Source of the DNA: Bimastos eiseni
Taxonomy: Eukaryota; Annelida; Clitellata; Crassiclitellata; Lumbricidae
Direction of reading: 5' to 3'
DNA: 64,000 nt
Assembly (NCBI GenBank): GCA_959347315.1
Contig: OY365807.1
Coordinates: forward strand, 13,653,307-13,717,306
The notes beneath the pieces were generated by a model. The model searched no databases and had not been told where the DNA came from. It saw nothing but the letters and a program-made list of their open reading frames with translations. The first letter of the stretch is position 1. Every line of letters starts with the position of its first letter. Shown one piece after another: positions 17,094 to 63,241 of this stretch. Both the position numbers and the translations under genes were made by a program.

Positions 17094-17262
17094 ATGGAAG
17101 CCGGTGGTAACGGCCGTAGAATGGACCTGCAGGCGATGACGACCGCGCCCATGGCATCTGTCTCCGGTAGACCAGGGGAGTCGGAACACCAGGGCCAGTC
17201 AGGGGCAATGACTAAAATGTCTCCGAGGAGAATCTTAACGGCAGCTTCCAGCTCTGGATCCG
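17094..17262 (+). CDS. HDAC4: Class IIa histone deacetylase, coding exon 1
   Basis: This exon gives residues 1-56 of the reconstructed protein, starting MEAGGNGRRMDLQAM. I chose the ATG at 17094 because it is the first after an in-frame TAA (17064) and has a strong context, AGCATGG, with A at -3 and G at +4. The exon ends at CCG|GTAGGC in phase 1. The leader is Ser, Gly and Met rich and matches no domain; class IIa HDAC leaders vary greatly between paralogues, so lack of similarity is expected. The link to the downstream exons rests on phase: the leftover G plus AT from exon 2 gives Asp57 without a stop. A 24.6-kb intron follows, so another undetected first exon is possible. Confidence 0.75.
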
Positions 17263-18179
17263 GTAGGCAAAGAATATCAGAATAGTAGTTTTTCAAGAAA
17301 TTGTAAAATTATAAAGCATCGTTAGTTACAAAACAATGAGAGGCAACAACAAAACAACAACAGGACGATGATGACAATGACAAAGATAATGATGATGGTA
17401 ATCATAAAATAAGATAAACAAATTTGGTGGTGGCCTAATTGATGACTTTAGTGTGCAAATGAAATATGTCTTTCTCCAGAGGGGAATGGTATGAGCAGAG
17501 TGCTGAGAGAAACTTTAAATTTTCTTTTGATCCTACTGACTATGGTATGTATGCAGCACGAAATCCATTTTTTGGTCTTTTTTTTATTTATTCCATCTTT
17601 TATTCTAGTTTTTAAAATTAAAGACCTATGATTGAAGTTGTATTATTTATATTACCAAGTAACACCAACTGATTTTGGAATTGTGGCTGATTCCAATATT
17701 TCCTTGTTGCATACTGCATGATGATTTAACCTCCAATAATGGATATAAATGGGGCTTAACTGTCGACTGCACATGACATATCTCTTGGCTTGCCTAAAAA
17801 AAATTTTCAGTTGGGACAGTTTTGCGTCCTTGAGACTTTCTCCTCACTCAAGAGCATTTTAATTATTCTTTATTTTCTTCTCAGGTGCTATATAAATTCA
17901 CCTGTCAATAATATACAATACACAGGTGATCGGGTTTGACGGGTGGTCATTGTCAAGGAATTGACTGATGTAATGTCTTTGCCTACCCATCGAATGAGTG
18001 ATCTTTCATTACAAAGAGTTAAGTCTAATGAACTTGACTGTAAACTTCTTTTATTTGCTACTAATGAGAGGTGCGTCTGATATAAAACATCTGACCTTCT
18101 GAGCTTTGAGTTGGAAACAGTTTACAATATTGTTGCCAGTCGCTTTGTATTTGTTTTATTAATGAACTTGTGTCGGAAG

Positions 18180-18465
18180 AAGAAGAGTGCTCAGTCCATT
18201 AAGCTAACCCTGAGGCAACCATGGGCATGAAATGTTTGCGACTTCAATTTTTAGCCTTGGCATCTGAAGGCGAGTGACCAGTGCCTTACCCTGCCATCTC
18301 ATCTTCTCACTGACAGTGTCTGGTCTGTGTGCTCATGATAGCTCATTTGGGTAGGGGCACAGCCAGATCAGAAATCTCAAGCCAAATTTCTGCACAAGCA
18401 GGATTTGAAACCCCAACCTCTCAATTGACAGTCCAGCATGCTAGCCACTATGCTATGAAGTGTTA
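18180..18465 (-). repeat. tRNA-derived SINE
   Basis: Read on the minus strand, the head at 18401-18457 has a tRNA-like A box (TAGTGGCTAGCATGCTGGA) and B box (GGTTTCAAATCC), the internal RNA polymerase III promoter layout. The body extends to about 18180. A related body is found at 33943-34212. Two further tRNA-like heads lie at 20620-20680 (minus) and 22369-22432 (plus). This is not a functional tRNA: no acceptor stem or anticodon arm can be closed. Confidence 0.7.
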
Positions 18466-18513
18466 GTAATTTTATTTTCTTCTTGATTGACAGTCCTGCA
18501 GACCAGCACATAA

Positions 18514-18605
18514 AGCACAAGTTTATTTACATGTTCAAGTTTATTTACTTGTACCAGTTTATTTACATGTACACTGTACATGACTCTGTACATTGTACAG
18601 AGTCA
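18514..18605. repeat. Three 18-bp repeats ending in a perfect hairpin
   Basis: Three copies of an 18-bp unit (consensus AAGTTTATTTACATGTWC) run from 18514 to about 18570. They are followed at 18581-18605 by TGACTCTGTACA, one base, and its exact reverse complement TGTACAGAGTCA. Confidence 0.85.
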
Positions 18606-19721
18606 GGTAATCTGAATCCAAGGTGCAGATGAATGTTTGCTTGTGTCCGAGATGCTGAATGAAACAGGCAACTCAGGATCACCTGATGTTCACAGGCCCC
18701 ACAGACTGCAATGCTCTGGGTTGGGTCCTAAGACTTTTTCTGTTGATTTTCGATGTTTTTCACAGTAGGTAAGACTTCCTATAGATGCCCTGCTGAGCAT
18801 TTCTTTCCTGAATTTCCTATCCGCTGTGTATGCTCTCATGACCTGCTGGAATTTCGTTGTCAGTGTTATCATTTTGCAAGGAAACATTCTTGACGCTGCC
18901 GATGATCGGTTGTTGGACTGAGAACTCGGTCTGTACCACTCTGTGCTAGGCTTACGGCTCTTATAAATTGTTGTTAATCTGAAGCAGAAGTGAATAAAAC
19001 AGATATTGTTGTAGACATTTTTATCATTCTGATTGTGATCAGATATTTATTTAGCCCCCTTTTTTATGAATTGCTTTGATGCATTTCATTATGACCATCA
19101 TTGACGGTATAGACATGTCTTTCAAGTTTTGAGGATATTGTGCAATCTGTGTTCAGTGGAGCAGATGGCATTTTTGTGGCAGGAGAATTATTCTGTAAAG
19201 ATAGGTAAGTCAAGCAGCAACACCGACTGTGACCGACATGCATGCACTTGTAAGGTCATTCATTCATTCATTCATTCGGAACATTTAGTAGTTTATTAAT
19301 ACTGGTATTCTCGATCCGCCATGTTTTAGTGCCTTTGAGAGGTCCACTATCTCCACTTACCTGCTGACATACATGTACACTTACATGCATCCAAATTTTA
19401 GTTACATAAGTTAGTCCAACTATATCTGGACACCAATTGCATAAATGTAATATCTTACAAAATGAGCAATTCGAATAGCGAGCATATCACCAAACTCACA
19501 GTGTAGAAAGTTCTTTAGTAGATTAAAAATCCATGGATTGGTGTCTAACACATTCAAAAATTAGTTTTGAAGTAAGAGGCAGGAAGTTTGAACCCCATAA
19601 TAACTTGCAGAACTAGTGTCTGCTTTTCATTTCATCATCAGTTCTTGACATCAGCCAATTAGAGTCGATTGGTATGAAGAAATGACCTCCACTTCGCCAA
19701 TCATTAGTCAAGTCCATTGCT

Positions 19722-19784
19722 CCCATTAGTGTTACCATAGTTCCCCTTAGTGTTACCATACTTCCCCTTATTGTTACCATAGTT
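19722..19784. repeat. 21-bp tandem repeat, three units
   Basis: Units of CCCCTTAGTGTTACCATAGTT with one to three differences repeat exactly three times. The motif is not part of any gene I can see. Confidence 0.9.
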
Positions 19785-19925
19785 CCATGTGATGCTGTGT
19801 CACATTTTATGCGATATACCCAGCAGAGTTTTGATCTGCCTTCATTTCTTTTCCTTTGAATCTTTCATGGGATTTGGTCAACATGGATTCTCTCTACATG
19901 CCCAAGCCCTCGGAATCTTTGTTGA

Positions 19926-20180
19926 ATGACTTTGTATGGCAGGGTTGTTTGGATGTCTAATGTGCCTGCTTTCACCAGATACCAGTACAAGAAGAATGCA
20001 GGATGGATGGAAGTGGAAGACATGCTGGTGGGATTGGTTGAGAAGGAGGCGTCCGTTTAGTTTCTGCCACTGGACACTGTGGACAACTCCAGACGGATTG
20101 TCCGTCATAGGGAATCGGGTAGTTATGGGGTTAAGGAGGCTTTGCAGAAACCTGTAAGTAGGTTATATTTGGCAGTGTGA
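19926..20180 (+). pseudogene. BEL/Pao-type integrase C-terminal relic
   Basis: An 84-codon frame with one internal TAG (20058-20060) begins LYGRVVWMSNVPAFTRYQ and ends ALQKPVSRLYLAV. The order of short blocks fits the C-terminal domain of BEL/Pao integrases (DUF5641 type): FW-R-W-xEYLPxLxxR, then GDxVLV, then WPLGxV, then VRxVxVR, then RPVxKLxLL. Here these appear as WMSNVPAFTRYQ, VEDMLVGLVE, FLPLDTV, RRIVRHRES and KPVSRLYL. The catalytic core, protease and reverse transcriptase are not recognisable upstream. A CCT|GTAAGTAGG word at 20150 looks like a splice donor but falls inside the conserved tail, so I read it as coincidence. Confidence 0.5.
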
Positions 20181-20459
20181 GATTTGCAGTGTAATATTTG
20201 GCCACCTAGTGGCTGACTTAGACATTCTGCTCTTACTCATACTTGCTTTGTACATTATAACAGATTTTTTGTTTTTTTACTGCCATGCGATGGCGAACTG
20301 TGGCATGGTGGCCCATTGCCGAGTCTGTAATTCGCTGATTGCTGATTCATGCCTGCTGACAGAACACTGTGTAATGACTCTGGACAAGTCATTCAGACTC
20401 ATTGCTCGTGTAACTCAGATTTAAATCTACTAACCCTGTGAACTTAGCAGTGCAATAAG

Positions 20460-20682
20460 AAAATAAACAGTGAGTTGAGAGGGAGCAGTGGGTTGAAGGC
20501 CAGTCCTTCCCATTGCTGCATTTCTCAGTTTGCACACCCCCGAGTGGCCTCTTCTTATTGCTGGTATGATCAGAGGCTTATTTCATACAGAAATCTTAAA
20601 ACATCATTTTGATTTTATTGGAAATTGAACTCATGACCTTGGAAATGGCAGTCTAACATATTGACCACTAGGTCAATATACT
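20460..20682 (-). repeat. tRNA-derived SINE, decayed
   Basis: The minus-strand head at 20620-20680 contains a TAGTGGTCAATATGTTAGA A-box-like word and a GGTCATGAGTTCAATTTCC B-box-like word at normal spacing. The body is poorly delimited. Confidence 0.55.
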
Positions 20683-21085
20683 AGATTATGAAGGTATTGG
20701 TAAATTGTTGCTGCTTATGAAATGCAATAATGGGGCATATGATGCAGCTGAGTATTTATAAAGTATCTAACTCTATTTATATAGCACCTTTCAATTCATG
20801 GAAAGTCGCTGAAATGCGGCTGTTAAGGAACTCTAAATAGGTGCAGCTGAAGATTAGTTACTCTGACAGAGTGGTCAGTTGGTCAGATGAACAGAATACA
20901 GATGTAAGAATTGTAGAGTGTGAAAGTGGGGTTAGTGGTATAATTGAAAATAGAGCTTCAGGATGGAAAGAAGAGAGATACGGATGACTATGAAGGCTGG
21001 TAGTTCTTCATCAAACGGAGAAGGAATGATTAGGAGATGTGCAACTGAGGTGGGGAATTTGCAGAATGGAAGCACTGAATATGAG

Positions 21086-22280
21086 TAGGGCATAACCGGA
21101 AATCGCCTCGGACATTCACCTCGGCCGAATATTGGACTATTGGAAAGTATTCGCCTTGGCAAATATTACACCCGCAAATAGCTAAAAGTAACTGTTTTGA
21201 TAAAATCATTTATGTTGATAAAATGATATTTGTCATCAAATAAATTTAGTACTAACAGACTTACTTATAAGTTATTGATTAATTAAACAAGAACTTAACA
21301 TTCCATTGAATTTTCTTTAAAATAATTATGTTAATTTATATAAAATTATTTGAATTTCTTTTGGTTGCATTCCCCAGCAATCAAATCAGTAATTCTCCCG
21401 TTTGAATTGGCTCCACCCACTTTCCGGTAAACATTGCAGAGTAAAGACGTCGTTGATAACTTCATAGTTAAAATTTTATAACAAGGTTTTACATTTTTTC
21501 ATAAATAAAGTTATTAAATAATAAATATATATGTGAGGCGGGGTCAAAACCCATCACTTGACGTTTTTGACTTTTTATTAAATCATATTCATATGCATCG
21601 GCTTCAAAATCGTTTTTTACAGATATGAAATAGCTTTTATCTAACTTAAGTTATACTGTTTTAGTCTTTCATTAGTATAATCTTAACAACTGAGAAAATC
21701 AAAATAAAAGTTTCAGAATATTCATGTCATCAAATATATTAGCAACCGTTACTTGATTACTCCTCAACTCTACTGGGCAATATAGTGCTATATTCTTTAC
21801 GAGATAATGCAAGCAGCATCAAAATCTTTTTGCTACTTTGCAAATAATGGCAAGTCGGCATATGAAATCTTGGTCATTCCCTATTGAAAACATGCATATT
21901 TTATCAATGCAGATCTAGATACCATGGGCATTAAAAGTAACTTTTTTTCTCTAACTAAGTATTTGAATTCAACTTTTTAATTTCAGATATTCAAAGTAGA
22001 CATATTTATTTGTAACAATATACCATAAAACGATTTTCTGAATTTTTGACCTCTGTCACCTATTTCAGCCTTTATCTTAATAACTAGGAGCCGAGAAACG
22101 GCAGGTTTTGACCCCCGCCTCACATATTGTTATGGCCTACGCTTTGCCAACAGATGGTGCTCGCTGAGTTGCTGGCCAGATTTGCCGCTATTATTTAGTT
22201 CGTACCCGGATCCGGCGAATAGTTCATCATAATACTCGGATTCGGTACTCGGTGGAAATTGTCTACTCGATTATGCCCTA
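21086..22280. mobile_element. hAT-like MITE with a nested insertion
   Basis: The ends are TAGGGCATAACCG and, inverted on the right, TAGGGCATAATCG. Flanks are AATATGAG (21078-21085) and AATAGGAG (22281-22288), an 8-bp duplication with one mismatch, as for hAT. Subterminal words TCGGCCGAATAT, GTATTCGCCTTGGCAAATA and GTACCCGGATCCGGCGAATAG are shared with the copy at 29086-29493. The copy is split by a second element at 21533-22123; without it the length would be about 604 bp. Confidence 0.8.
21533..22123. mobile_element. 591-bp inverted-repeat element nested in the hAT MITE
   Basis: The left end GTGAGGCGGGGTCAAAACC and the right end GGTTTTGACCCCCGCCTCAC are inverted copies that differ by a single inserted C. 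Short AT-rich flanks (ATAT on each side) may be the target duplication. The interior has no protein frame. The superfamily cannot be assigned from the ends alone. Confidence 0.8.
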
Positions 22281-22368
22281 AATAGGAGTGCTGAAGAAGT
22301 TGATTTGTTTGCATATATGGGCTAGCAGAGTTAGTTATGGTTGTAGTGTATATATTGTACAGAAATGC

Positions 22369-22560
22369 TCAGTAGTGTAGTGGTTAGCTGTCACTGCAGA
22401 AGTTGGGGTTTGGAATCTATGCTAAGACGGGAAGATAATCCAAGATTTCTCGTCCACAGCACCCACAAGTGACTGTGAGCATCTAATGAGCACATTTTGG
22501 TGCACAGAGGCTTTGGGAAGATCAAGTGGTTGGGGAGAGGGCTGAACCTCTGACCTCTTT
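22369..22560 (+). repeat. tRNA-derived SINE
   Basis: AGTAGTGTAGTGGTTAGCTG (A-box region, 22371-22390) is followed by GTTGGGGTTTGGAATC (B-box region, 22402-22417). The body continues through TCCACAGCACCCACAAGTGA to about 22560. The orientation is opposite to the copies at 18180-18465 and 20460-20682. Confidence 0.65.
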
Positions 22561-22715
22561 TGCCAAGACAGAAAAAATATAATTGCTGAAACAATTCATT
22601 TGGTTCTGGACTTGCTTTGCCCACAAGTGGCTGGGCCCGCGACTCACTGGGCTCATGACTGGCTGGGTCCAGGACTTGGCTGAGTCCATGACTAGCTATC
22701 AGGGTTAGTATTATC

Positions 22716-22817
22716 GGATAGTTCTTTTTATAATTTATATGATATATATATACATATATATATCATATAAATTATAAAAGAATATATATACATATCATAT
22801 AAATTATAAAAAGAACC

Positions 22818-22821
<4 letters not shown>
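22716..22821. repeat. 106-bp AT-rich foldback
   Basis: The left arm GGATAGTTCTTTTTATAATT is repeated in inverse at the right (AATTATAAAAAGAACCATCC), with one mismatch. A second inner copy (ATCATATAAATTATAAAAG) lies between, so the molecule has nested hairpins. TA microsatellite follows to 22851. Confidence 0.85.
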
Positions 22822-22855
<34 letters not shown>

Positions 22856-23104
22856 CTGTTTCTGTAGATGCTGTGTTTACTGTTTACATCTGTGAGTGCT
22901 TTGATGCTGTTAACATCAGATACTGCTAATGCTCCTCTTAAATAATCTAATGAGCATATCATGGCAAATATCAGTTGTATTGTATTGCTTTATATTGAAT
23001 CGTCTTTTGTTATTATTATTATTATTATTAGTAGTAGTAATAGTAGTAGTAATATTTATTAGTATTGTTATTATTATTATTCTTTTGTTTTATTATTGAT
23101 ATTA

Positions 23105-24165
23105 TTATTGTTCATCATCATCATCATCATGATCCATGGAGTGAAACCCACAGGTGTCCACTGCACATTTGACCATTGTTCTCCGTGCTCCTCTGTCCTG
23201 GGTTAGCTTTAATAAGGTGTGTATATCAGTTCCACGCCAGTCGTCTATGTCATCAAGCCATTCTCTGCATGGTCTTCCTCTTCTTCCCATTCCCTCCATG
23301 ATTCCTGTCATTACACTCTTTATTTTTCTCTCATTATCCATTCTGCAGATATGCCTGAATAGTCCTAATTTTCTTTTCATTATGGCTTGCATCATATTCT
23401 ATTCATATTCTCTTTGATGTTTAGTCTTTTTCTTACTTCAGCATTTTTTACTCTTTGTGTCCAGTTCAGTTGCAATATCCTTCTATTACAGTACATTTAA
23501 AACGCTAGTAACGTTCTTATATTTGTTTTCTTTATAATCTAGGTCTCACAGGCATATAGTGTTGTACTAAATACACACGTTTTCAATATCCTCAGTTTGG
23601 CGTGGTATCTTATTGTTTTGCTTCTCCATATGGTGTTAAAGCCTGCAATCACTCATTTCGCTTTATTAATTCTTCTCTTTATATCTATCGTGCAGTTGTT
23701 GTCCAAAGTCATGAGGCTCCCCAGGTATATGAACACTTTAACATTTTCAATTATTTTTTCTTCGATTGTAATTTCATTTTCTATGTAATTCTTCCCAAAC
23801 ACCGGTGTTGTTTGTCTTTCCTATGTTTATATTCAGACGGACATCTCTTCCTGCTCTATCCAATAAGCAACCACTTTCTTGCAGTGCTTCACAGCTATCT
23901 TCTATTAATAGCCTGAAATATCTTGTCATCTGCAAATCTCAAGTTATTAATCATCTCTCCCTGTACTGGTATTTCTGTGCCATTGTCCTGGTTAATATCC
24001 ATTACTCTCTCCAGATATTCTATAAATTCTGAAAGTGATATTGGATCTCCCTGTTTTGTGCCTATACTAATTTTGAACCATTCTTCTAGTTCATGACCTG
24101 TCCTTACTGCTGCTCTTGAGTGTTCACCAGCATTCTGTAGGATCTGTGCCAATTGCTGTCCAATT
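23105..24165 (-). mobile_element. Non-LTR retrotransposon (RTE-like) 3' half, decayed
   Basis: On the minus strand, blocks of a reverse transcriptase appear in the right order but in shifted frames: HELEEWFKISIGTKQGDPIS (about 24090-24030), LRFADDKIFQAI with the catalytic FADD box (about 23937-23924), KVFIYLGSLMTLDNN (near 23720), and the C-terminal tail KRKLGLFRHICRMDNERKIK and MGRRGRPCREWLDDIDDW (23380-23250). The element ends in a GAT-rich simple repeat near 23110, as such LINEs do. Similar ORFs are often deposited as craniofacial development protein 2-like. The endonuclease and the 5' half are missing, a typical 5' truncation. Confidence 0.85.
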
Positions 24166-24429
24166 ATTATTAATTAGTAGTAAAACTTGATTTGTAAAGC
24201 ACGATAAGATAATGAACTCCGAACTCAATGCACTGTTAAAAAGATAGGTAACTTAAACAATTGAGTCTTGAACATTCTTTGAAGGCCCTCCAACAATGAC
24301 TCCAAGTAGCCTGAATATCTTATGGTGTACAGGTGTAGTATTGTTTTTTGTCTAGAGCAGTCAGAAACAAATTGTCCGACGATGAATCACACTGTCACTT
24401 GCTGCCAGGAAGATTTGTCAGGATACTCC

Positions 24430-24896
24430 TAGGGATAGACCGAAACTCGGCTCGAAACTTGGCTGTGTTTGGTAGTACTCGGCATAAACTTGGAGTCCGA
24501 CAAACAATTGGTCCAAGTTTTTTAATAAAATTTTTTTCGCTTTCTGATTTTTTGTTTTGAAGCCGAATGTCGGATCATTTCATTTACATAACCTCAATAA
24601 TCCTGACTAAAAGCATGTTTTTAAAACGAAAAGCAGATTATTTATTTACAAAACAACAATCAACCTAATTAAAAAAGGAATACTGTTACTATTAGTACTT
24701 GCTATTTACTAATTCGTAGTGTAAACTGAGTCAAAACCAAAAAATTTATAAACAAATATTGTGCAAACTGCCAAACTAAAAATGAAGAGAATGAGACTTG
24801 CTTTACTTTACATATTGAAACTCGGATTCGGTGTAATTCAACTCATAAAACGCGGTACTTGTACGTGTCAGGAAATTGACGCTTGGTTCATCCGTA
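24430..24896. mobile_element. hAT-like MITE, second family, copy A
   Basis: Begins TAGGGATAGACCGAAACTCGG and ends GGTTCATCCGTA. It shares CTCGGCATAAACTTGGAGTC and AATTGACGCTTGGTTCATC segments with the copy at 28936-29716. Flanks GATACTCC and GCTACTAC match at six of eight positions, a weak trace of a target duplication. Confidence 0.6.
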
Positions 24897-26565
24897 GCTA
24901 CTACTATCGGTCACATTACAATGAGAATTCTCAATTAACAGACCAAGTGTCCAAGTTTATAACCGTTACTGCACATCCATGTTTCGCTCATTCAGCTTCT
25001 CCTCAGAGGTGACCACAGTTGAATCGCATGGTTTACCACAGCTATCAATACAGAGGCATATACAGAGAGACAAAGACATAGGCAGAGAGTGAAAGAGGAG
25101 CTTATAGGTACGAAGATTTAAAGAAATTCGCTGCCGTCAGACGGACGGCCCACTGACCTTCTCTATGGAATGATGGTGTGCTGCTGTTTATTATGTTGTT
25201 GGCTGGGAATGCCACGCGGTGGCAACGGTGAATGTCGGACGATTTCTTCTTGGATTGATAGACCTCAGAACGATATATACCAAATACCAAACCGACCACA
25301 CGCTTCTTATTCTCTCCACGAATCTTACTAATAGGACCAAGGATATGGCTTCTGTAGAAAAAATAATTATTTTCTGTAGCTGTAGTATCCCATATACTAA
25401 AGTGCAAAGTAATTTTCTGCAGATGTGACCTGCTAGATTGAAGTGTGTAGTAAAAGCGGTCCAGTACGAAAACATTTGGGGAATGTGGATTAAGATTAAG
25501 ACTTTGCATAAGAAAGTCGACATAATGTTTGAGCATTTCTGTGAATGATCTTTCTGCTTGAGATGCTCTCTAAATTGAATAGTGCAACAGAAATGTTTTT
25601 TATGAGCTGGGATTGTATTTGTTCAAAAGTTCACTGACCGTGGTAATCGAAAGCTTTGATATAGAGACGGTCAAATGTCTAGTTACATTAACATTATGTA
25701 TTTGTATATATCTATTGATATGTTATCTCAGATGTTACCTTAAACTTAAGAAGGTTAAGACACATGCTTGCATTCAATCAGCTGGTGCTCTTGCCATGAG
25801 TTGTATGCTTTGCATTTTAAATCAACGACTTTTGAAATCATTTTAAGAAACATTGTCCATTTGTTTATTATTTGAAAATCAGTCAAAACAAACATCAAGT
25901 TTCAACATTTTCACTGAGTCTTTTCTGAAAATATGCAACTGTCATGCAAACTGTTTTCACAGAAAGTAACAAATTATAAGATGTCTTAAGATAGCTGCAG
26001 ATGCCCTGCTTGCACTTGGATGTCTTATATATTAACCTGCACTCACATTACATTCAGCCTACCTTACTGTTCTTCCTGCCTGTTCCGGAATGGGAAATAA
26101 CTAAAATAGGAAGCAGAACAACAACAACAACAACAAGTCTCTTTGAATTGTGGTACAGCTAAATGAAAGTCCTAGGCTTGATTATTATTTTATAGTTGAT
26201 GCCTGGTCGATATTAACGAGGATGATAGTGCCTGCCTTATGCCCACTGTGCAAAGTTTTAAGGGAGATTCTGTTTTGTGGGCTTGCGCTCTTGTGTATAC
26301 ACATTCAGAATTCCGTCTTCATTGATGGTGGGTGTACTGTGGGCATTATTATGAAGGAATTATTGGGAGTTTTACAAAGGAATTGTTAATGAACCCATGC
26401 TATACTTGGAATATACTGCTTGAATGGTTTACACTCATGTCCACACACACCTACACGCATACACACGCAACACACACAGACGCACAACCCTACAAACACC
26501 CACACACCAGCACATTACCGGTATATAATATATTCACCCTTGCATGTGTGCATATTCACCCTTGC

Positions 26566-26588
26566 ATATATATATATATATATATATA
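26566..26588. repeat. TA microsatellite
   Basis: A run of alternating T and A follows a tract of degenerate CACA repeats (26437-26520). The ORFs over it are simple-sequence artefacts. Confidence 0.9.
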
Positions 26589-26953
26589 CATACGTGCACA
26601 CAGTTGTATCTTTGATTTGGACAATAATATTATGTTGATAATCACGAGTCATAGCTGAGTGCAATTACCAGGCCAAAGCCATTTCATCTTTGGGAGACAT
26701 TTGACTGCCTGGCTATCAGCGCACATATATACATGCATATTGTATATTTAATTGTATGTTATTTTATATTTGTATATGTATATATATATATATCTAATGC
26801 CCCAATCAGAATGACCACTACATCAGTATCCCTTGGCTTAGAAAGAGAGCATCTCCATTGATTTGCACCCCAATTCCTGTTTTCAATGGAGGCTGCACCA
26901 AACAGACCGTCCTTGCTACCGCTATAAATTTGAGGTCAGTGATTGATTCTTGT

Positions 26954-27250
26954 TGGATTGAGGTCATAAATGTCTGCTGTTGGATTGAGGTCATAAATGT
27001 CTGCTGTTGGATTGAGGTCATAAATGTCTGCTGTTGGATTGAGGTCATAAATGTCTGCTGTTGGATTGAGGTCATAAATGTCTGCTGTTGGATTGAGGTC
27101 ATAAATGTCTGCTGTTGGATTGAGGTCATAAATGTCTGCTGTTGGATTGAGGTCATAAATGTCTGCTGTTGGATTGAGGTCATAAATGTCTGCTGTTGGA
27201 TTGAGGTCATAAATGTCTGCTGTTGGATTGAGGTCAGGAATGTCAGCAGA
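26954..27250. repeat. 27-bp minisatellite, eleven units
   Basis: Ten near-identical units of TTGGATTGAGGTCATAAATGTCTGCTG are followed by one diverged unit. The unit length is divisible by three, so both strands stay open (WIEVINVCC on +, TSIQQQTFM on -). No start context, splice support or known protein accompanies either frame, so I treat the array as non-coding. The near identity implies recent expansion. Confidence 0.95.
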
Positions 27251-41907: not shown

Positions 41908-41985
41908 ATCCACTGGCTTCTCCTAGCAACGAGATCATCTCAGACATAGATTTGCAGCTGGAGTCGTCTTCTGCTCCTCATCCGG
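41908..41985 (+). CDS. HDAC4: Class IIa histone deacetylase, coding exon 2
   Basis: Residues 57-82 (with Asp57 and Gly83 split by introns). It starts after TTCTTTCAG and ends at CCGG|GTGAGT, a strong donor; length 78 bp, phase 1 on both sides, so it could be skipped without a frameshift. The peptide DPLASPSNEIISDIDLQLES has the position of the human HDAC4 segment around PMDLRLDH, which carries a CtBP-binding PxDLR motif. Here the proline is Asp and the Arg is Gln (DIDLQ), so CtBP binding is probably weak or absent. Assignment relies on phase compatibility and position more than on identity. Confidence 0.8.
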
Positions 41986-45239: not shown

Positions 45240-45436
45240 GATTGGCTGGCAGTGCTGGTTCAGTGCTGGCCTCTCCTCGGTTGCCAATGGTAACGAGAGA
45301 CCCATCACTTCAGGCTCAGTTATACACTCTCGAGAAGCACTACCACATCCAGAAGGAACTGCTGAGCCGACAGTTCGAGGAGCAGAGAAGACTACTGGAG
45401 CACGAACAGCAGATGAAGATGGAGGAGTACATCAAG
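45240..45436 (+). CDS. HDAC4: Class IIa histone deacetylase, coding exon 3 (coiled coil, first half)
   Basis: Residues 83-148, starting after TTTGCACAG and ending at ATCAAG|GTTCGT in phase 0 (197 bp). After a Ser, Ala, Gly stretch and the motif RDPSLQAQLYTLEK, the peptide forms a Glu, Gln, Leu-rich helix (KELLSRQFEEQRRLLEHEQQ) matching the start of the glutamine-rich domain of HDAC4/5/9 (LREQQLQQELL ... IAEFQRQHEQL ... HEHIK). In the human enzymes this domain forms tetrameric coiled coils and recruits partners. The match in order and spacing is the first firm evidence for the family. The frame stays open 90 bp past the donor because a LINE fragment follows. Confidence 0.92.
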
Positions 45437-51592: not shown

Positions 51593-51664
51593 TATAAATG
51601 TGCTTCCATGTGCATAGTACCATTGCCATCATATACATGAAATATATACATATGCAAACACACT

Positions 51665-51695: not shown

Positions 51696-51697
<2 letters not shown>

Positions 51698-53225: not shown

Positions 53226-53236
53226 ACATGTATAAT

Positions 53237-53268
53237 TGTATATATATATCTATATCTATATATATATC

Positions 53269-53300
<32 letters not shown>

Positions 53301-53301
53301 C
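53237..53301. repeat. TA/CTATA microsatellite
   Basis: Alternating TATA with CTATATC interruptions; the YIYIYI open frame is an artefact. Confidence 0.9.
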
Positions 53302-54094: not shown

Positions 54095-54218
54095 ATGGTG
54101 ATGTTACAGAGGCAGCAACATGAGGAGGAATTGTATGAACTGCAGAAGCAGAAACTGCAAGAGGAGAAGAGAAAGGAATGCTGGGAACAACTGAAACACA
54201 AGCGAAAGGATGAAGAAA
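54095..54218 (+). CDS. HDAC4: Class IIa histone deacetylase, coding exon 4 (coiled coil, second half)
   Basis: Residues 149-189 (Ser190 split), starting after CATCTACAG and ending at GAAGAAA|GTAAAC in phase 1 (124 bp). The peptide VMLQRQQHEEELYELQKQ then KLQEEKRKECWEQLKHKRKD continues the charged helix, ending in a Lys, Glu-rich stretch like the KNKEKGKES of human HDAC4. It is about nine residues shorter than the human segment. Its ends match the human domain layout, where the next exon opens with the MEF2-binding region. If the intron were retained, the frame would end after about a dozen residues. Confidence 0.92.
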
Positions 54219-55592
54219 GTAAACAGGAGACAAACTGCCTTTCTTATGTATTATTATAATAAGTACTGTGTACAGAGAGCAGTCACTATTACAGTGTGTT
54301 TTTGAGATTGGTGCTAATTAACATCTTTATCATGATGTTTGGTAGATAGTTAATTAGTTATCTAGCTTTATTGTTTGTAGTGCCTTTTTAATACCTTTCA
54401 AAAGCATTGCATGTTCTCTAAAACTATTGTATAGTTGGTAGACATAACAGTCGGTGTCTATTGTTGAGCTCTAGTTCATCAGCAATGAATAGATCTTTCT
54501 GTGGCAATTTTTGTAGACAACTCAACCAAGTGCAGTGCACTGTAGACACAAATTTCAACAAGTTGGTAGAGGAAAATCTCTTTATCAGTGTAGTGTTTTT
54601 TTAATACTGATAGTGATCTAGTATTTGAAAACCATCCGATAGCAGGCAAGAGATCTAGGCCAAAAACAATTGATTTGCAGAAGAGTCATAATTTTTGTGT
54701 TATCGTAGTAATCTACCTAGAAGACAATGAGTGTTGTTCTACATATGCTGATTATTCGGTTAATTCATCATCAAGCTGACAAATTGAAACTTAATTTACA
54801 GTAATTTATTTAGTTTATATTCTAGAACAATTTATGGGCCCTACTCGTCGGCTGCAAAATAGTCAACACATTTTCAAAATTGTTTACGGTTTTTGATTTA
54901 ACACATGTGTTTAAACAAGAGGCAGAGTATGAAGTTCTTATCGTCCTTATTTTCAGTGTGAACTCTTGTGCTTAAGGCCACAAGTTGTACTAAATAGAGC
55001 GAGGTGCTGGTAGGTGTTTTCTAAGTACATGGCTCCTAAAGCACAGCTGTCTAATGATATAGTCGATGAAAGCATTTGCTTGCATATTTTCCTCTTGGGG
55101 CATTACTGTTTGTAAGCTACAAATACACAATTACACATGCAACCTATTTGTCGGGCAAAAATGTATGCATTTTTAGAGAGAGTATAAATCTCCAGAAGTG
55201 TTGCATTTAAAATGTACATTTGGTTTTCGTGCAATTAATTTGACCAAGAAATGTGCGCACTTTGTTACCCAGTATGGTGCAAGATAATCCATTTGACAAC
55301 AGCTGTAGTCGAAGTGCTTTACACTTGACAGCTCATTTGTAGTATGGATTGATGAACTTGGTTTCCTTTGCACTCTCAAAAAGATGTCTATTTTTACTGA
55401 CGGCATGAACTAACGTATACCTGGAATGTGGTAGATATTAATCACCAGATATCAATTTGTTTGACAAGAACATTTCACAAAGTGAGAAGCATTTTTGACA
55501 AGTTATGAAACTTGATATAAGCAATTTTTTTAGTTTTATGAGACTCTGTTTTGCCATGTTGTATTTGATCATTTCTATGTCTGTGGATGCAG
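54219..55592 (+). other. HDAC intron 4 (1.37 kb)
   Basis: Bounded by GTAAAC and GGATGCAG. No repeat or gene is recognisable inside; composition is AT-rich. Confidence 0.6.
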
Positions 55593-55701
55593 GTGCTGTG
55601 GCGTCGGCTGCTGTTAAGCAGAAACTTCGCGAATGCCTGCTCAACAAGAGCCAGAGAGAGTTGCACGGTCCCTCCGACTCACCCCCAGAATTCCAGCACT
55701 G
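55593..55701 (+). CDS. HDAC4: Class IIa histone deacetylase, coding exon 5 (MEF2-binding helix)
   Basis: Residues 190-225 (Trp226 split), 109 bp, entering in phase 1 and leaving in phase 2 at CACTG|GTACGT. The peptide SAVASAAVKQKLRECLLNKS aligns with the MEF2-binding helix of human HDAC4 ([20 protein letters not shown]). The VKxKLxExxLNK core is kept. Through this helix class IIa HDACs dock on MEF2 and repress its targets in the nucleus. The exon ends SPPEFQHW, equivalent to SDPRYWYGKTQHSS after splicing. This is the strongest single family marker in the window. Confidence 0.96.
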
Positions 55702-56415
55702 GTACGTCCCGGTCGAATCTCAACCAAAAGTGTTATAGATTTTCCCTTTCATACTGTTAGTCGGTGGCACTGTATTCAAGAAGTGTAGATCCTTGAGCTG
55801 ACCCCTGGAGGCATCGAACTTGTTTTCTAAGCCTTGCTTGATAAGGATTGTTGCCAAGTCCTGACCCTTCCTGCCTGCCTGATCTTCCCCAGTGGCAGTG
55901 CTACACCAGGACATGCCAGGGCAAATGCCCTGGTAAATTGTCTTTCCCCTGGTCACTGTCCTGCCACTTTCCACTAACCACCAGACTCCAGTATATACTC
56001 TTGTTGCATGCAGCACACTGCGCACAGGGCATGGCTAGCCTTAACCACATGCACTGTCCTTCGTCAATCTAATTCTTCCTTGAACAGTTCGCTATCTTCA
56101 CGTCGCACTCATGCTCTAGGCTACTACTCTTTGATTTGGCTCTACAATGGCTGTATTTTATTTTATTTCGAGTTTCCTTCGTAAAATTATTTTAAAATTT
56201 AGTATTTGTAATTGTTTATTATTTCTAGGGCATATAGCTAGTTATTTTATGTATTTGTGCAGCTTTTTTCTCTCACAGACATCATTGTTCTGGTCTTCTC
56301 TATTAATATTAGCCAGACACTTGTACAGTGGAAGCTGCTGCAGTATTTATTCATTTTCAATCTTTACCCATAAAGTATGACTGGATTAAAACCACTGATT
56401 TGAACTATGTTGCAG
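55702..56415 (+). other. HDAC intron 5 (714 bp)
   Basis: Bounded by GTACGT and TGTTGCAG. AGTGGCAGTGCTACACCAGG at 55891-55910 resembles a hAT terminus, but I find no partner end. Confidence 0.6.
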
Positions 56416-56528
56416 GTCAACCCAGCACAGCTCGCTTGAACAGCAGTCGCCTCCAACTACGACAAAATGGTCCCCACCACTTCATACACTCTGCAAGTAC
56501 GATGAAGAGTATCCACTTCGCAAAACAG
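56416..56528 (+). CDS. HDAC4: Class IIa histone deacetylase, coding exon 6
   Basis: Residues 226-263 (Trp226 and Val264 split), 113 bp, entering in phase 2 and leaving in phase 1 at AAAACAG|GTAAAA. STQHSSLEQQSPP matches human KTQHSSLDQSSPP almost residue for residue, then YDEEYPLRKT matches YDAKDDFPLRKT. The LRKT at the end is the N-terminal part of the first 14-3-3 binding site, which is completed across the intron by VSEP in exon 7, exactly as in the vertebrate paralogues. Confidence 0.96.
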
Positions 56529-56698
56529 GTAAAACTCAGGTTAAATGATTTGCGTGAAAGGAGGTGATAGGTAGAATGGTTTGCAAGGTAAAGTAGGATA
56601 AGGCAGGATATGAAGAGATTCACAACCACTGTCCCTTCTGCTTTGCCCGACAGACAGCAATGGTTTTCAATGTTAGACACCGCATGCAAGTATGCATA

Positions 56699-56763
56699 TG
56701 CATATATATATATATGTATAATATATATACATATATATATATAATATATATATATATATATTA
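56699..56763. repeat. TA microsatellite
   Basis: Alternating AT with palindromic ATAATATATA interruptions. Confidence 0.9.
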
Positions 56764-57129
56764 TATTTGTATACTAGCATTTTTGGACCCAACTTTATCC
56801 ATGTAGTTTAATATAATTGCCTCTTACTCAGTGGCTTCAGTGGCTTTGCCCTGGAGAATGTTGTGTACTCGTGTCTCCCTTTTCAATTCCATCCTCTCTA
56901 ACCCTGACCACATTCTAAGAAATCTTCTTCCTCCTATTAGATGTGTGGAGTACTAGATGCGCTTATTTGCATGTTAAGGCTGTTGTTGTTTGCATCAGGA
57001 CTGAACATAATATTTTAATTTAAATGATGAATTTTGAGCTGAAAATAGTTGCATTTACCTTGAAATTTGCATGAGAAAGTTCTGTACAAATTTCAATTTC
57101 CACAGTGTCGCAGTTGCAAGTTTTTAGTT

Positions 57130-57583
57130 CATCTGTTCTCAACCTGTGGGTCGCGACCCCACGTGGGTTGACTTGCGATTTGCCAGGGGTCAAATAGAAC
57201 CCTCAGGAATTTGAAATAAAATTTTTACAAAAGCAGTTGTCAGCGTAGTTTCTCATTTTCAAAATTTATGTAATCATGATTATTACACTAAGTACAGCAC
57301 CATAGCGGCTTAAATTAATCATTACATATTTCCTGTACTGTGATTCATTTAATAAAGATATTGTATAATAACCAACAACAAAATATAAATTGCTCTTTTA
57401 GTTAATGATTTATTATGCTGCTGTGCATGAGATGAATGAGTTGAAGATCAAATAGTAAGAAGTGAAACACATGGTAGTGAAAACGCAGTGAAGGCAGTCC
57501 CCCCATCAATTTCATAATTGGGGTCGCCTCAACTTTGGAAATATTATTGAGGGTCACAGGACTAAAATGATGGAGAACCTCTG
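57130..57583. mobile_element. hAT MITE (CAGCGGTTCTCAAC type), copy 2
   Basis: Begins CATCTGTTCTCAACCTGTGG and ends GGAGAACCTCTG. It is flanked by TTTTAGTT at 57122-57129 and again at 57584-57591, a perfect 8-bp duplication. It shares GTGGGTCGCGACC and GGGGTCGCCTCAACTTTGGAA with the copy at 33205-33599 and lies in the same orientation. No transposase is present. Confidence 0.92.
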
Positions 57584-57779
57584 TTTTAGTTGGACAGACA
57601 AACAGACGAATCTTGACAATGTTTGTAAGATATATGCATATTAACATTTATATGTATATATTGCATGCAATTGTTTCACGGGATGTGAGCCATTGACACT
57701 TAATACATGCATACACGTGTATATGTTGCGCATAGTAGGTTGCTTCAGAGTGTTGTCTACTGACTGTTCGTTGTTTCAG

Positions 57780-57899
57780 TGTCAGAGCCAAGTCTGAAGA
57801 TGCGTCCTTCCAAAGTATCGCTTCGGCAGAAGGTGATGCAGAGAAACAGCCAACTGATGCGACGCCGAGAGATGTATCGCAAACGAATCAGTTCAACAG
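57780..57899 (+). CDS. HDAC4: Class IIa histone deacetylase, coding exon 7 (14-3-3 site and nuclear localisation region)
   Basis: Residues 264-303 (Val304 split), 120 bp, phase 1 on both sides, after TTGTTTCAG and before ACAG|GTACAT. With exon 6 it forms LRKTVSEPSLKMR, the equivalent of human HDAC4 LRKTASEPNLKLR; Ser265 corresponds to human Ser246, phosphorylated by CaMK, PKD and SIK kinases to bind 14-3-3 and send the protein to the cytoplasm. The following KVSLRQKVMQRNSQLMRRR and YRKR are the basic cluster matching the nuclear localisation region (RLKQKVAERRSSPLLRRK). The exon could be skipped in frame, which would remove both signals. Confidence 0.97.
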
Positions 57900-58382
57900 G
57901 TACATCACTTCACCTCCCACACCTACAAATGCTTCAAGTCTGTTCGTTTCTTCCAAAGTTGGACCGAGAGCATTTCTGTGTTGTTGTATTGGAGAGATGC
58001 TATGCAAATGTTGTGAATTAATGAACGAATGAATGAATGAATGGATGAATGAATGAATTTGTTCAGTTGTAAATCTAAATGTTACTTCTCAAAGCGTGAG
58101 GTGGTCTTGAAGCCAGCCGATGAACTGAACTTGCTTCTCTTAATGCACAGAACATGCTCAAATGCAAGGCAAAAGATCATTTGAAAATCTATTCTGCAAC
58201 ATGCACCTACTGCAAATTGGATTCAACTTAGTCATTATTTTATTTGCAATTTTTTTTAGATTTCTTGTTAAATGAAATATGAGCAGTTTGCATATTGTTT
58301 TCAAGATACATAAATACTGAGCATTTGGTTGGGCAAAAAGTCTTGTTGCTGCAGACTATGTACTTCGATAATGTGCTTTTAG
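57900..58382 (+). other. HDAC intron 7 (483 bp)
   Basis: Bounded by GTACAT and GCTTTTAG. A LINE-like 3' tail (GAGAGATGCTATGCAAATG) followed by GAAT repeats fills 57985-58062, less than 100 bp from the exon. Confidence 0.65.
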
Positions 58383-58465
58383 TTGATCAGGATTCGTCTC
58401 CAAACTCTCCTCCGACTGTCATCAGCTCGCAGGATTCATCTGTCGATATGGGAATTCTGGAAGAG
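58383..58465 (+). CDS. HDAC4: Class IIa histone deacetylase, coding exon 8
   Basis: Residues 304-331, 83 bp, entering in phase 1 and leaving in phase 0 at GAAGAG|GTATAT. The peptide VDQDSSPNSPPTVISSQDSS matches in position and composition the Ser, Pro-rich segment after the nuclear localisation region in human HDAC4 (DSACSSAPGSGPSSPNNSS). A CAG|GATT at 58390 is an alternative acceptor, but it would shift the frame into an unrelated peptide. TAG at 58380-58382 gives the frame that joins exon 7 and exon 9, so I prefer it. Confidence 0.88.
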
Positions 58466-61306
58466 GTATATCCTTTTTTTTCATTTGCAATGTTCTTACA
58501 TGTAGACAGGAGCAAATTTCTTAAGGAAAACTCCTCAGAGATGATTCGAAGCTGGCATCACACTACCATACAATATTCGTTTAATTCACCAAAAGTGTTC
58601 AAACTGACATGGCTGTAACTTAAATTACACTAGATCTGTCAGTTTAGTCATTTCGTTGTAAATGAGGGGGGATCCCACTGACCCCATAACAGGACAATTA
58701 ATAATGCATCTAGTAAATGTTCTTGAAAAAATGAAGCAAGGTATGAAGTTTTTACTGTCCTTCAAGCATGCAGGGGGTTTTGACGAAACGACTTTATTGC
58801 TGATTCTAGATTCGATCCAATAAATTTGCAATATTTGGTTCTGGGCACTGTTTGTTCTCTGCAATCACAGAAATTTAAAAAATCTGTTATGTTCGTGCAA
58901 GGTGTGATTCAAACAAGAGTTTATGCACTGAACTATTTAAAATAAACTGTTATATTGTTTATATTGAAATTTACACTTTGAACCGCATCGAGTAAGAAAA
59001 TGACCGACTGTCCGACATTTTTCTTGATGCGTTGATTTATAATTTTAGTAGCTCATACGAATTTTTAATTAGAAATTTTGCCAAAGGAAGTCGCCCAAAT
59101 GAGTTGCTATTTTTTTAGTAAATAAAAAAGAAGTTGTTTTTTATATTAAATATATGTCTTCTTTTGACATTTTTATCAGCCAATTCCAATTAATTGGTCT
59201 GTTGCAAAATCTGGCAGAAATCAGTTTACAGATCAGGATTCAGTCCAACCCATCTTTTCTACCAGGGTTGGGCCAGGAGTTCCTCTGAGTAGTTATCTTT
59301 TAGGGGCACTATATAAATGCTCTGAATAATCAAATGTTGCGAATTACTTTACAGCCTGTTCTGTAGTGACATGTCTGAATGGCCAAGCATGGTTTGCTGC
59401 CATGGGGTATTCTAGAAGTTTTGTACCGTGTGCAACTGATTCGATTTTGACAAGGATTGGTCTCAAAATATACATCATGTGTGTAATAAGTTTATTTAAC
59501 GACGCATCCATGACAAGGATGATATGCGTTAAATATATATATATATACATCAGTGAAATATACTTCAGTGTTGAGGCACATTTTTATATAACGCTGAACT
59601 TGAGAACGTTTGGCCAATAGTGAATGGCGAGTTTTTGCGCCATTTTCAGGGTTGGAAGCAGGGACCATGCTCAGGTATGGACCAATGTACGTGTGGATCT
59701 TCTGCCTTTGGATCTGCATGCATCCAATGTATTGTAGTGATCCAGAAATGGCGTGGGATTGGCGAAAACACTATGGACTAAAGAGATTTGGAGACATTGA
59801 GTCTACTTTACAGAACATAGGCCTACTAGCCATAAAAACTCGGACCCATACCAACCCAGAAAGACAAGTCAGATGGCACAGACAACCAAGCCTGAGTACA
59901 CCCATGCAACCCAGAAAAGATTCCCAGAAAAGACCGCTACTATCCAAAAATAGAAGACGAACAGCATGGCCGGTATAAGTGGGACAAGTATCAGTGTAAG
60001 AAATAGCAGAAGATGCTGTCAACTGTCACAGCAGCAGCAGCAGCAGCTGTCCTATTTCCGTTGTGAATCTTTTTGGTCTATTGATTTCTCCATTTGGCTT
60101 GCTGCTGCTGATGCTGATGCTGCTGTGGCTATTTCTGGAGATCTCTATTTTTAGTTGCGCTATTGAATGGCATCGGTCTGGTTACGAAGCGCGTGCAGAA
60201 GGAGGCCGAGCGACTTGCAGTCTGATGGATTAATCTCTATTGGCAGAATAATACGTCCTCCCTCTGTTCACTCATTCTGTGCTCAGCTATTGCACTCATA
60301 ATTATGCTCGGCCGCTGTTCTGAGACATCGTGCTAGGCAGTCGCTGTGCTCGTGTGCTCGAACGCTGTGCTCAACCATTGTTATGCTTCTGTGCAAGGCC
60401 GCTGTGCTCAAAGCTGATCTAGCGATGCTAGACCTGTGTGCTCAGCCAGATGTGCTCGGCTCTTGCGTGGGGTGTTGTCTGCTGTCAAGGCTCTGCTAAG
60501 AATAGTCAACGTTTTTGTCGTCAGTTTTGGACTTCGCTCAGAAATAATGGCATTTGCAAATGACTAAGTCATGCATCCAATAGATCCTTGAAGGGAAGGA
60601 GGGAGGGAGGGAGGCAGAGGAAGGAGCAGGAAGAGGAGGAGGTGGAAGAGGCTAGGTAGGAAGAAGTAAGACTTGGAATGGATGGGAGGTGGTGGAAAAG
60701 AAGATGTTTGCAAAGGAGGATGAGGAAGGAAATGAAGGGTAATAGGAAGACATGGAAAGGAAGGGAAGAAGAGCAGTAGGTGTTGGACTAGGACTACTAG
60801 GACTACGTGAATTGGATGGAAAGGAGGAAGTTGAGGAGGACAATGATGGAGAAAGGAGGAAACAAAGATGAATAGATGAAGGTAAACAATTGTTATGTAG
60901 CTTAATAGTAATAACAATGACAATTTATATGTGCGGTCATACTGCTATAAGGGCGCCTCACAAAACGACTAGCTTCATGTGTGTCATTTGACAAATCCTA
61001 GCAAAATGACATAGATCTCACCATTTCAGACTATTTAGTCCTTTAACCTTCATAATGGGGTGTCTGCTTGTTGGCATTCTATGTCTTTATCTGTCTGTCT
61101 GTCTGTCTGCCATCAGGCCACTCTGAATGGGCTTTTGCACCAGAATAACAATTTGTTATGAGTCTAGTGCGCTTTGTAATGTTTGTATCTGGTATTAGCA
61201 TGCAGTACTTGTGTAAGGGCATTGACTAATGTGCCTTTTTTAAATGTTTGTTTTGTGTTAAGAGGACTGATGTGTAGGTCAACGATTTGCTTGTGGTGTT
61301 TGGTAG
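58466..61306 (+). other. HDAC intron 8 (2.84 kb)
   Basis: Bounded by GTATAT and TTTGGTAG. A LINE-like tail (GGGGCACTATATAAATGCTC) lies at 59304-59323. The 122-codon ORF at 59610-59978 has no recognised domain. CAG repeats at 60029-60047 face CTG-rich sequence at 60097-60125. Degenerate TGTGCTC repeats span 60280-60470 and purine-rich repeats 60590-60880. Confidence 0.6.
60590..60880. repeat. Polypurine tract
   Basis: GGGA and GAGGAG repeats on + with few pyrimidines over almost 300 bp. Minus-strand open frames are composition artefacts. Confidence 0.85.
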
Positions 61307-61423
61307 GAACCTAGGGGATTTGGTGGACTCGATTTCCAACTGTCTGCAGGCAGCCAGAGCCGACCGGACATAACTGTTGGCCAGCCACAGAGAAGTCCTT
61401 TTGCCTATAAACCATCAGCCATT
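61307..61423 (+). CDS. HDAC4: Class IIa histone deacetylase, coding exon 9
   Basis: Residues 332-370, 117 bp, phase 0 on both sides, between TTTGGTAG and GCCATT|GTAAGA. The peptide contains SRPDITVGQPQRSP, matching the conserved SLPNITLGLP segment downstream of the nuclear localisation region in HDAC4/5/9. The rest (EPRGFGGLDFQLSAG, FAYKPSAI) is family-specific. The acceptor has a weak pyrimidine tract rich in TG, so inclusion may be regulated; skipping it would keep the frame. Confidence 0.88.
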
Positions 61424-62945
61424 GTAAGACTTAGTTTATGTTTTCTGCTAAGATGAACTCTACCAAGATATGTCTGGATTGGCAGACTGTCATTCCCTCA
61501 TTTCTTTCATTATTTCTTCTTTCTGCGGTCCTCAAGTTCATTTCTTAAGTCCTTCCGTCTTTCCTTCGAGCTATCCTACCTTCGTTACTTCCTTCCTATC
61601 TTCATTTCTTCGTTCCAACCATCCAGTCTTCAAGCCTCTCTTCTTTCCTTCCTCATTTACATCTATCCATTCTTCCTTTATCCCTGCCTTTCTTCCTTCC
61701 TTCTTTCTTGTGATCCATTAATTCATCCATCATTCTTTCCTTCATTCCTTACTTTTTTCTTTTCTATCCATGATTTCTTTTTACTGAACTCATTCCGTCC
61801 TTCACTCCTTCCTTCATTTCATCAATCTTTTTCCTTTCTTTCTTCTTTCTTTCTTTGTTCATTCATCCATCTTATATGTTTTGTGATTGGCTTAGACGAG
61901 ATATTGTGATGATGATGATATTCATTTATTTTCATTTTTTTATTGTCATTATTATGATAACGTAACAGATGTCATATTGCATCATGGGTTACAGGGAAAT
62001 AAACGAACTGTCTAGGTGTTTATTTAGCGTTAAAATATTGCTGGACCAGACTATGATGGACATTTTAAATTCCTGTAAAGTACTCTAAATATGTAGTTGT
62101 TATTGTCCTTACTGGGGAATTCCTTGCTGTGTTTTAGGCCACAGTGGCGTTTAGTGAGTGCAGTGGAATAGGAGGCTCTACATGGTTGTGGTTCCTCTCG
62201 ATGTTCTGTATGAAATTTAGATCCTCAGCAGATCCTATGTGGTTTTCCATTGTAGGACTGCCTTCACGTATAATATATCCCATCACCACTGTTCTCGGCA
62301 GTAGTTGCTCGAGTTCTTGATGATCTGATGCCTTCCCATACACTCACCAAACAGGCAAAGATGCAGTAGGCAGGAAGCTTCTGCAACTGCTTTCAAGCAC
62401 ATCATATGAGTCCATGACACATGCAGTGCTTGAAGCAATGCAGAGTAGGCATAGGTTATTTCTTTCAAGTGTAGGGTCGCACTAGATCGTTTACAAAGGT
62501 GACTGCACAGATTTCCAGTGACTCACTACCCAAATCGCCCCTTTTATCAGCTGAAGCAGCTCCACTCTTTTCCTCCTCCAATTACCTGCATCTGTCTAGA
62601 TTTGAAATAATTCAGCCTGAGGTTATTTTTTTGTGGCCTACTATGAGTCAGCCAAAAGATCTTTTCTGACATCAATTGGTCCCTTCCACTTTTCCATCTT
62701 TCCACCTTTGCCTCTTTCCTTTGCTTTTCGATTCATTGATCTTTTCATATTTTTTACTTAAAGTCGTCGTTCCACCTCTGATTCCTTCCTTTTTTTCCTT
62801 CATTCATTCATATTTTTGCCTAAACAAGACGTAAAGTGGTGCATTCCTATTTTCCATCGATTTTTCCTTCTTTTGTTGCCTTCCATCGTTTTGTATTCAT
62901 TCATTGTTTCTTTTCAATCAAATATGGCATGAACTGGATTTTCAG
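61424..62945 (+). other. HDAC intron 9 (1.5 kb)
   Basis: Bounded by GTAAGA and GATTTTCAG. CTTCC and TTCC repeats fill 61490-61860. An unassigned sequence with minus-strand open frames at 62134-62468 may be a decayed element. Confidence 0.6.
61490..61860. repeat. TTCC-rich polypyrimidine tract
   Basis: Degenerate CTTCCTTC repeats over about 370 bp of intron 9. Complementary in composition to the purine-rich tract at 60590-60880 in the preceding intron. Confidence 0.85.
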
Positions 62946-63241
62946 AGCATGACTGCCCTTCGTGGCTCTGAAGCAGAGCTGGAAATGGCCGCCGCCTTGT
63001 CGAGTCATTACGGTAGCCTACCACTGGTTGGTGGCATCTACCACCGGGCTTCATCCGAGGCGACAGATGGTGACAGTGTCCCAGAAGGCCAGGAGATGAT
63101 GTCGGGCAAGGCTTTTGATGGAGACCCAAGCGATGGTCATGGCCCAAGGACCATGGGCTCCACCGGAGGACCGATGTTTCCGTCTCACCTGGACACGGCC
63201 AACTTGACCGCATCTTACGTTCAGGCGCTGTTGCTGGCAAG
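62946..63241 (+). CDS. HDAC4: Class IIa histone deacetylase, coding exon 10
   Basis: Residues 371-468, 296 bp, entering in phase 0 after GATTTTCAG and leaving in phase 2 at GCAAG|GTATGT. The peptide (SMTALRGSEAELEMAAALSS, later MFPSHLDTANLTASYVQALL) is rich in Ser, Gly, Ala and acidic residues and has no domain. It occupies the poorly conserved linker between the SLPNI-type segment and the second 14-3-3 site of the vertebrate enzymes. IYHRASSEA offers a basic-directed serine, but lacks the proline at +2 expected of a 14-3-3 site. The open frame with matching phases and good splice sites supports it as an exon; identity to known proteins is low. The catalytic domain must follow outside the window. 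Confidence 0.85.

Follow-up and report, generated by a model that had tools for sequence, protein, structure and literature searches.

The closest described systems are HDAC4 of Drosophila, HDAC4 of vertebrates and a histone deacetylase (HDAC) of Paralvinella palmiformis (LSH36_124g03018; P0001). Drosophila HDAC4 comprises a catalytic tyrosine (Y1142), a MEF2 region and three export serines at positions 239, 573 and 748. It keeps the ankyrin-repeat docking motif as PSLPNI, and mutation of this motif worsens the effects of nuclear HDAC4 accumulation (PMC10763444). For annelids, duplications of hdac1/2 and hdac6/10 are named in a survey that covers Owenia, Capitella and Dimorphilus and that, in its accessible parts, names none of hdac4/5/7/9 (PMC12153100). 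A class IIa duplication in annelids was likewise not found in the literature searched, as far as the accessible texts go. Among 252 proteins retrieved in this study, the position of human His976 is occupied by Tyr in 77 and by His in 155, while 20 are fragments without this position. Based on the listed names, rows with Tyr are termed invertebrate here and those with His vertebrate (some rows are nameless), and all counts include many isoforms and close kin, i.e., they are counts of rows and not of independent events. Lahm et al. 2007 reportedly concerns this Tyr/His exchange at the class IIa catalytic position.

The locus presented here belongs to a known family and is ordinary as a gene; of modest interest are only its diverged duplicate and the docking motif that it lacks. 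The window, i.e., the whole analyzed stretch of 64,000 nucleotides of Bimastos eiseni, corresponds to C2:13653307-13717306 on the + strand (window position p = C2:13653306+p) of an assembly of 660 Mb in 118 contigs. We are confident, close to certainty, that it covers the 5' portion of an intact class IIa histone deacetylase gene of the HDAC4/5/7/9 type from an annelid, one of two found in the genome; the window gene is the C2 copy, its paralogue lies on C6. Like Drosophila HDAC4, the window gene encodes the catalytic Tyr, a MEF2 region and candidate export serines; unlike it, the window gene does not retain PSLPNI. With vertebrate HDAC4 it shares the domain order, the first 14-3-3 site, the structural zinc and the tail, whereas 155 of 155 full-length vertebrate rows have His instead of the catalytic Tyr and retain PSLPNI. 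The Paralvinella protein is 50% identical over 93% of the length and has the same layout, including Val at the first 14-3-3 site and a LRECLL MEF2 helix, but its ankyrin-docking site keeps QSMPNI and its N-terminus is different.

Gene structure

The whole window gene comprises, in its spliced model, 23 exons over 61.2 kb on the + strand with 1074 codons and no internal stop. The sole stop of the 1074-residue product lies at its end, the introns are GT-AG and the phases are compatible throughout. A first model of 21 exons and 1029 residues was later revised to 23 by adding exon 2 and the true last exon, the latter located through the conserved EPMED tail. An earlier end at 77804 was discarded, since a phase-2 donor lies just ahead of that stop in both paralogues and an EPMEDS exon is found at 78277-78337 in the C2 copy. 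The flanks were fetched and searched by tblastn with a human HDAC4 sequence, which gave ordered + strand matches from the coiled-coil region to the C-terminus and one minus-strand chance match upstream. A PF00850 profile search of the assembly (30 candidates scored, 19 matches) placed three matches on the window strand, 8.2-10.4 kb beyond the window end. The deacetylase exons begin approximately 4.3 kb beyond the window end on the same strand, and the first of them, at window-equivalent position 68264, lies about 51 kb past the start codon. Thus the sequence-only reading, which had expected a deacetylase domain downstream and more than 46 kb of gene ahead of it, was right on both points. Within the window, none of ten long ORFs, among them the frame that surrounds exon 10, gave a Pfam match at E ≤ 0.01, and Rfam gave no match at gathering thresholds.

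The same reading had proposed ten exons which join in compatible phases to 468 codons and encode, in order, the coiled coil, MEF2 helix, 14-3-3 Ser265, basic nuclear-localisation region and SRPDITVGQP segment. These exons were recovered at 17094-63241 with 468.67 codons and GT-AG introns, and all named motifs are present in this order with a serine at residue 265. Consequently, ten exons over 46 kb are recoverable by unaided reading of raw sequence. While nine of the ten were found without the earlier codon count, exon 2 was sought only as a phase 1-1 exon of 75, 78 or 81 nt, and its recovery is not independent because these lengths came from the 468 codons (76 nt were missing).

Exon 1 (17094-17262) contains the ATG, with an in-frame stop upstream of it, and encodes an N-terminal tail (MEAGGNGRRMDLQ...); exon 2 (41908-41985; 78 nt, phase 1-1) encodes DPLASPSNEIISDIDLQLESSSAPHP. 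The first and second parts of the coiled-coil region fall into exons 3 (45240-45436) and 4 (54095-54218), and exon 3 was matched by tblastn with the Paralvinella N-terminus at 70% identity over 46 columns. Exon 5 (55593-55701) carries the MEF2-binding helix (SAVASAAVKQKLRECLLNK) and has a counterpart in the C6 paralogue, while exon 6 (56416-56528) reads TQHSSLEQQSPP...YPLRKT. The first 14-3-3 serine, Ser265 (codon 57782-57784), and the basic nuclear-localisation region belong to exon 7 (57780-57899), a DSSPNSPP segment to exon 8 (58383-58465), and SRPDITVGQP (61358-61387), at the site of the ankyrin-repeat docking motif, to exon 9 (61307-61423). Exon 10 (62946-63241) is the last within the window. 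Beyond it, in window-equivalent coordinates and on the same + strand, follow exons 11 (64258-64387), 12 (65706-65780), 13 (67396-67714), 14 (68264-68397; the first deacetylase exon), 15 (70426-70534), 16 (71185-71285), 17 (72172-72281), 18 (73065-73361), 19 (74295-74413), 20 (76019-76152), 21 (76679-76763), 22 (77656-77800) and 23 (78277-78337; EPMEDS tail).

Homology supports exons 3-7 and 10, the coiled coil being predicted by homology only. The case for exons 8 and 9 is made by their splice sites, their codon usage, a weak similarity and the phases of the paralogue, whose exon 6 matches exon 8 in phase and which has the phases of junctions 3-9 in common with the window gene. The weakest splice site of the ten exons is the exon 4 donor (87.2%), whereas the exon 10 donor beats 99.9% of the window GTs; both sites were part of the weight-matrix training set. 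When codon usage was compared with 1000 stop-free intronic segments of equal length, 0-11 of these nulls scored as high as the window exons. This test is not sharp, because five downstream exons that are certain by homology (12, 14, 16, 21 and 22) score less well, with 47, 36, 175, 103 and 61 of 1000 nulls as high. In a 20-column view, the protein P0002 of a relative and the Paralvinella protein each cross just two of the window's nine junctions gap-free, 4 and 6; over the entire gene, P0002 crosses 12 of 22 junctions gap-free, the remaining 10 being gapped or not covered.

Class IIa identity

The earlier assignment of the window to the 5' half of an invertebrate class IIa HDAC is borne out by protein homology, by the downstream PF00850 domain and by phylogeny. 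In a search with the 1029-residue product of the 21-exon model (7985 candidates scored, 2020 proteins at E ≤ 0.001, the best 120 of 2020 listed), matches to annotated class IIa HDACs extended over 93% of the query (E 2.2e-282), and the Paralvinella protein is the best named homologue among the matches listed (50% identity, 93% coverage). One C-terminal PF00850 domain was detected at residues 638-947 of this model (E 9.3e-89). The active-site motifs RPPGHHAE, DWDVHHGN, SAGFDA and LEGGY are present, and so is the structural zinc subdomain, CxC...H plus the CGG Cys (CICQNNAIHPE, CGGIGVD). The N-terminal half contains a predicted MEF2-binding helix, AVASAAVKQKLRECLLNK, and two clear candidate 14-3-3 sites, LRKTVSEPS (Ser265) and PRTRSEPIPLP; a third candidate, LERGHSCP (RGHSCP), is a loose match only. 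At the C-terminus, the export-signal region and the acidic tail are found (EEAETVSAFACLSV ... EPMEDS), the latter being usual for class IIa. The N-terminal glutamine-rich domain PF12203 gave no match at E ≤ 0.1 in the 1029-residue model. The precomputed domains of P0001, P0004, P0013, P0055 and others among the matches listed do not include it either, and since many listed invertebrate members are without it, we did not treat it as defining. In a tree of 32 rows, all of them class IIa, the window gene is nested among invertebrate class IIa proteins and groups with Paralvinella, P0002 and the C6 paralogue with 100/100 support.

The window gene keeps Tyr in LEGGY and lacks the vertebrate-type His. 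As all 77 invertebrate rows carry Tyr, this is the expected state. If the established model for class IIa enzymes applies, the N-terminal helix would dock on MEF2 and the coiled coil would oligomerise. Calcium- or stress-activated kinases would phosphorylate Ser265 and the second site, upon which 14-3-3 proteins would bind the phosphorylated repressor and move it to the cytoplasm, while the nuclear form would repress MEF2 targets alongside co-repressor complexes. Direct deacetylation would be expected as well, unlike in vertebrate members, because the window gene retains the catalytic tyrosine.

A second class IIa gene

The genome contains a second, diverged class IIa gene on another chromosome (C6:30917086-30938548, about 21.5 kb as modelled). 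It looks intact, with 20 exons and 967 residues without the 5' end and no internal stop. The exons were modelled with the window gene in view, and the phases of the 19 internal junctions equal those of window-gene junctions 3-21 (19 of 19 comparable). Independent support for this model comes from P0121, a protein of 608 residues from a 2,078-base contig, which is 90% identical over 62% of the C6 product and crosses 10 of its 19 junctions (7-16) gap-free. No EPMED tail was found in the 5.3 kb searched, and 5' exons of the C6 gene were not found. Both copies share the catalytic Tyr and the zinc residues besides the intron phases, whereas the C6 gene differs in that its first 14-3-3 site has Ala, its MEF2 helix has Phe and it shows a near-motif, QSMPNV.

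P0002, in turn, has 850 residues, stems from a 2,695-base contig and groups with the window gene (100/99). Since contigs so short that encode such proteins should be spliced, relatives appear to transcribe both gene types. The window gene shares Val at its first 14-3-3 site and Cys in its MEF2 helix with Paralvinella, which suggests that the duplication predates the Paralvinella split; the tree groups Paralvinella with the C2 copy (92/83), while the AU test rejects neither of two alternative placements (p 0.188 and 0.139). Together, the window gene and the C6 gene add an annelid with two class IIa HDACs.

Docking motif and N-terminal sites

The window gene lacks the PxLPxI/L ankyrin-repeat docking motif, which is usual for the class and not defining; the site reads QSRPDITVG. 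Of the 77 invertebrate rows, 76 have [LM]PNI at this site, 74 of these as PS[LM]PNI, and the sole exception is P0002, the nearest relative of the window gene in the tree. At the first 14-3-3 site, Ala is found in 70 of the 77 rows and neither residue by pattern in 5, and only P0001 and P0002 share Val with the window gene. The same two proteins alone share the Cys of its MEF2 helix, where most rows have Phe.

One might tentatively propose, as a possibility that we do not favor strongly, that after a duplication in the annelid lineage the window copy became a catalytically competent enzyme that shed its ankyrin anchor, with changes to its MEF2 helix and to the first of its 14-3-3 sites, and that the C6 copy retained the docking layout of the ancestor. 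The missing motif may then change where the protein is held. If true, the enzyme, MEF2 and ankyrin functions, which are joined in one protein in most animals, would be naturally separated here. If the division of docking motifs is real, comparing both copies would reveal the role of the ankyrin motif in a class IIa enzyme that keeps its Tyr.

Alternative explanations

The weakest claim concerns the 5' end, as exon 1 is the least certain exon. The transcript might start elsewhere, leaving exon 1 (17094) and perhaps exon 2 (41908) unused, with the start in another 5' exon or in exon 3 or 4; we consider this rather unlikely, if worth keeping in mind. N-termini vary among the listed relatives, and the annotated N-terminus of Paralvinella begins MEINN... 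and does not match exon 1. No homologue of exon 1 was found in protein searches with the spliced products or by tblastn with the Paralvinella N-terminus, and when relatives of exons 1-2 were sought with the 468-residue product, 7992 scored candidates yielded 19 matches (best E 9.6e-20), namely 17 named fish proteins and 2 without name. Furthermore, composition accounts for part of the codon signal of exon 1, and its frame contrast is weak: the coding frame scores 0.43, while the two others, with 3 and 4 stops, reach 0.31 and 0.33. Nevertheless, only 0 of 1000 nulls for exon 1 and 4 of 1000 for exon 2 reach their codon scores. Four splice sites were excluded from the weight matrix, namely the exon 1 donor, the two sites of exon 2 and the exon 3 acceptor. 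They beat 97.6-99.9% of the window GT/AG sites, with 97.6% of GTs for the exon 1 donor and 99.7-99.9% for the exon 2 sites, and phase 1 fits throughout. Within about 28 kb, two candidates of 75, 78 or 81 nt passed the filter, namely exon 2 and one that overlaps a tandem repeat. Exon 2 opens with a split Asp codon and continues with Pro-Leu, and the bivalve proteins P0010 (with the segment, after Glu) and P0026 (without it, after Asp) point to an exon start at the same place, ahead of a MEINN-like motif. Exon 2 is thus probably the position-equivalent of a mollusc 'DPL..MEINN' exon, as deduced from these bivalve proteins, and its split Asp/Glu start argues for the start at exon 1.

Doubts about the gene as a whole carry far less weight. 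The C2 copy could be a pseudogene in early decay, with the C6 copy doing the work, given its missing ankyrin motif, a 3-residue gap relative to C6 in a loop of the catalytic domain and an end branch of 0.39 in the tree. However, 1074 codons without stop or frame break, GT-AG introns and the kept catalytic and zinc residues make this very improbable, and the uninterrupted protein P0002 of a relative groups with C2 (100/99). In addition, the C6 lineage is no slower: its stem is long as well (0.88), which does not fit a plain contrast between a fast copy and a slow one. Even harder to believe is that a gene outside class IIa, for example of the class IIb HDAC6 type, resembles the family by chance in its N-terminal half. 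The top four rows of a PDB sequence search are indeed two-domain HDAC6 entries, but these rows sum two stretches; single HDAC6 domains reach approximately 245-298 bits, whereas the best single-domain solved structures are HDAC4 entries (2vqw, 516 bits). The N-terminal motifs and the structural zinc are of the class IIa type, and a separate deacetylase cluster on C10 looks HDAC6-like by eye.

Other features of the window and genome

The PF00850 search also matched deacetylase exons at three separate places, C1:70145136, C4:45463534 and C9:14441026, which, judged by eye, we take to be of the HDAC11 (class IV) type. Two deep HDAC11 lineages are reported in a recent study (PMC13325672, 2026). Several repeats were observed in the window. 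A tandem array of 27 bp x 10.9 (99% matches) lies within intron 1 at 26951-27244 and another of 17 bp x 8.9 (100%) at 1168-1318, while two arrays upstream of the gene, at 11375-11550 and 12305-12407, have a palindromic core, TCGTGCGCACGA, and periods of about 21 and 42 bases. The intron 1 segments 21085-21500 and 22167-22301 resemble sequence found at two sites upstream of the C6 gene, partly recur near 29.1-29.5 kb of the window, and probably represent a dispersed mobile element. The contig C118 (15,339 bases) is presumably mitochondrial: by eye, its long frames on one strand are ND4, ND1, ND2, COX1, COX2, COX3, ND6, CYTB, ATP6 and ND5, an order that agrees with that of annelids. Together with the tree, in which both class IIa genes fall with Paralvinella, this points to an annelid host. 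Between ATP6 and ND5, at approximately 12728-13310, it contains a long simple repeat that translates as Met-Tyr runs.
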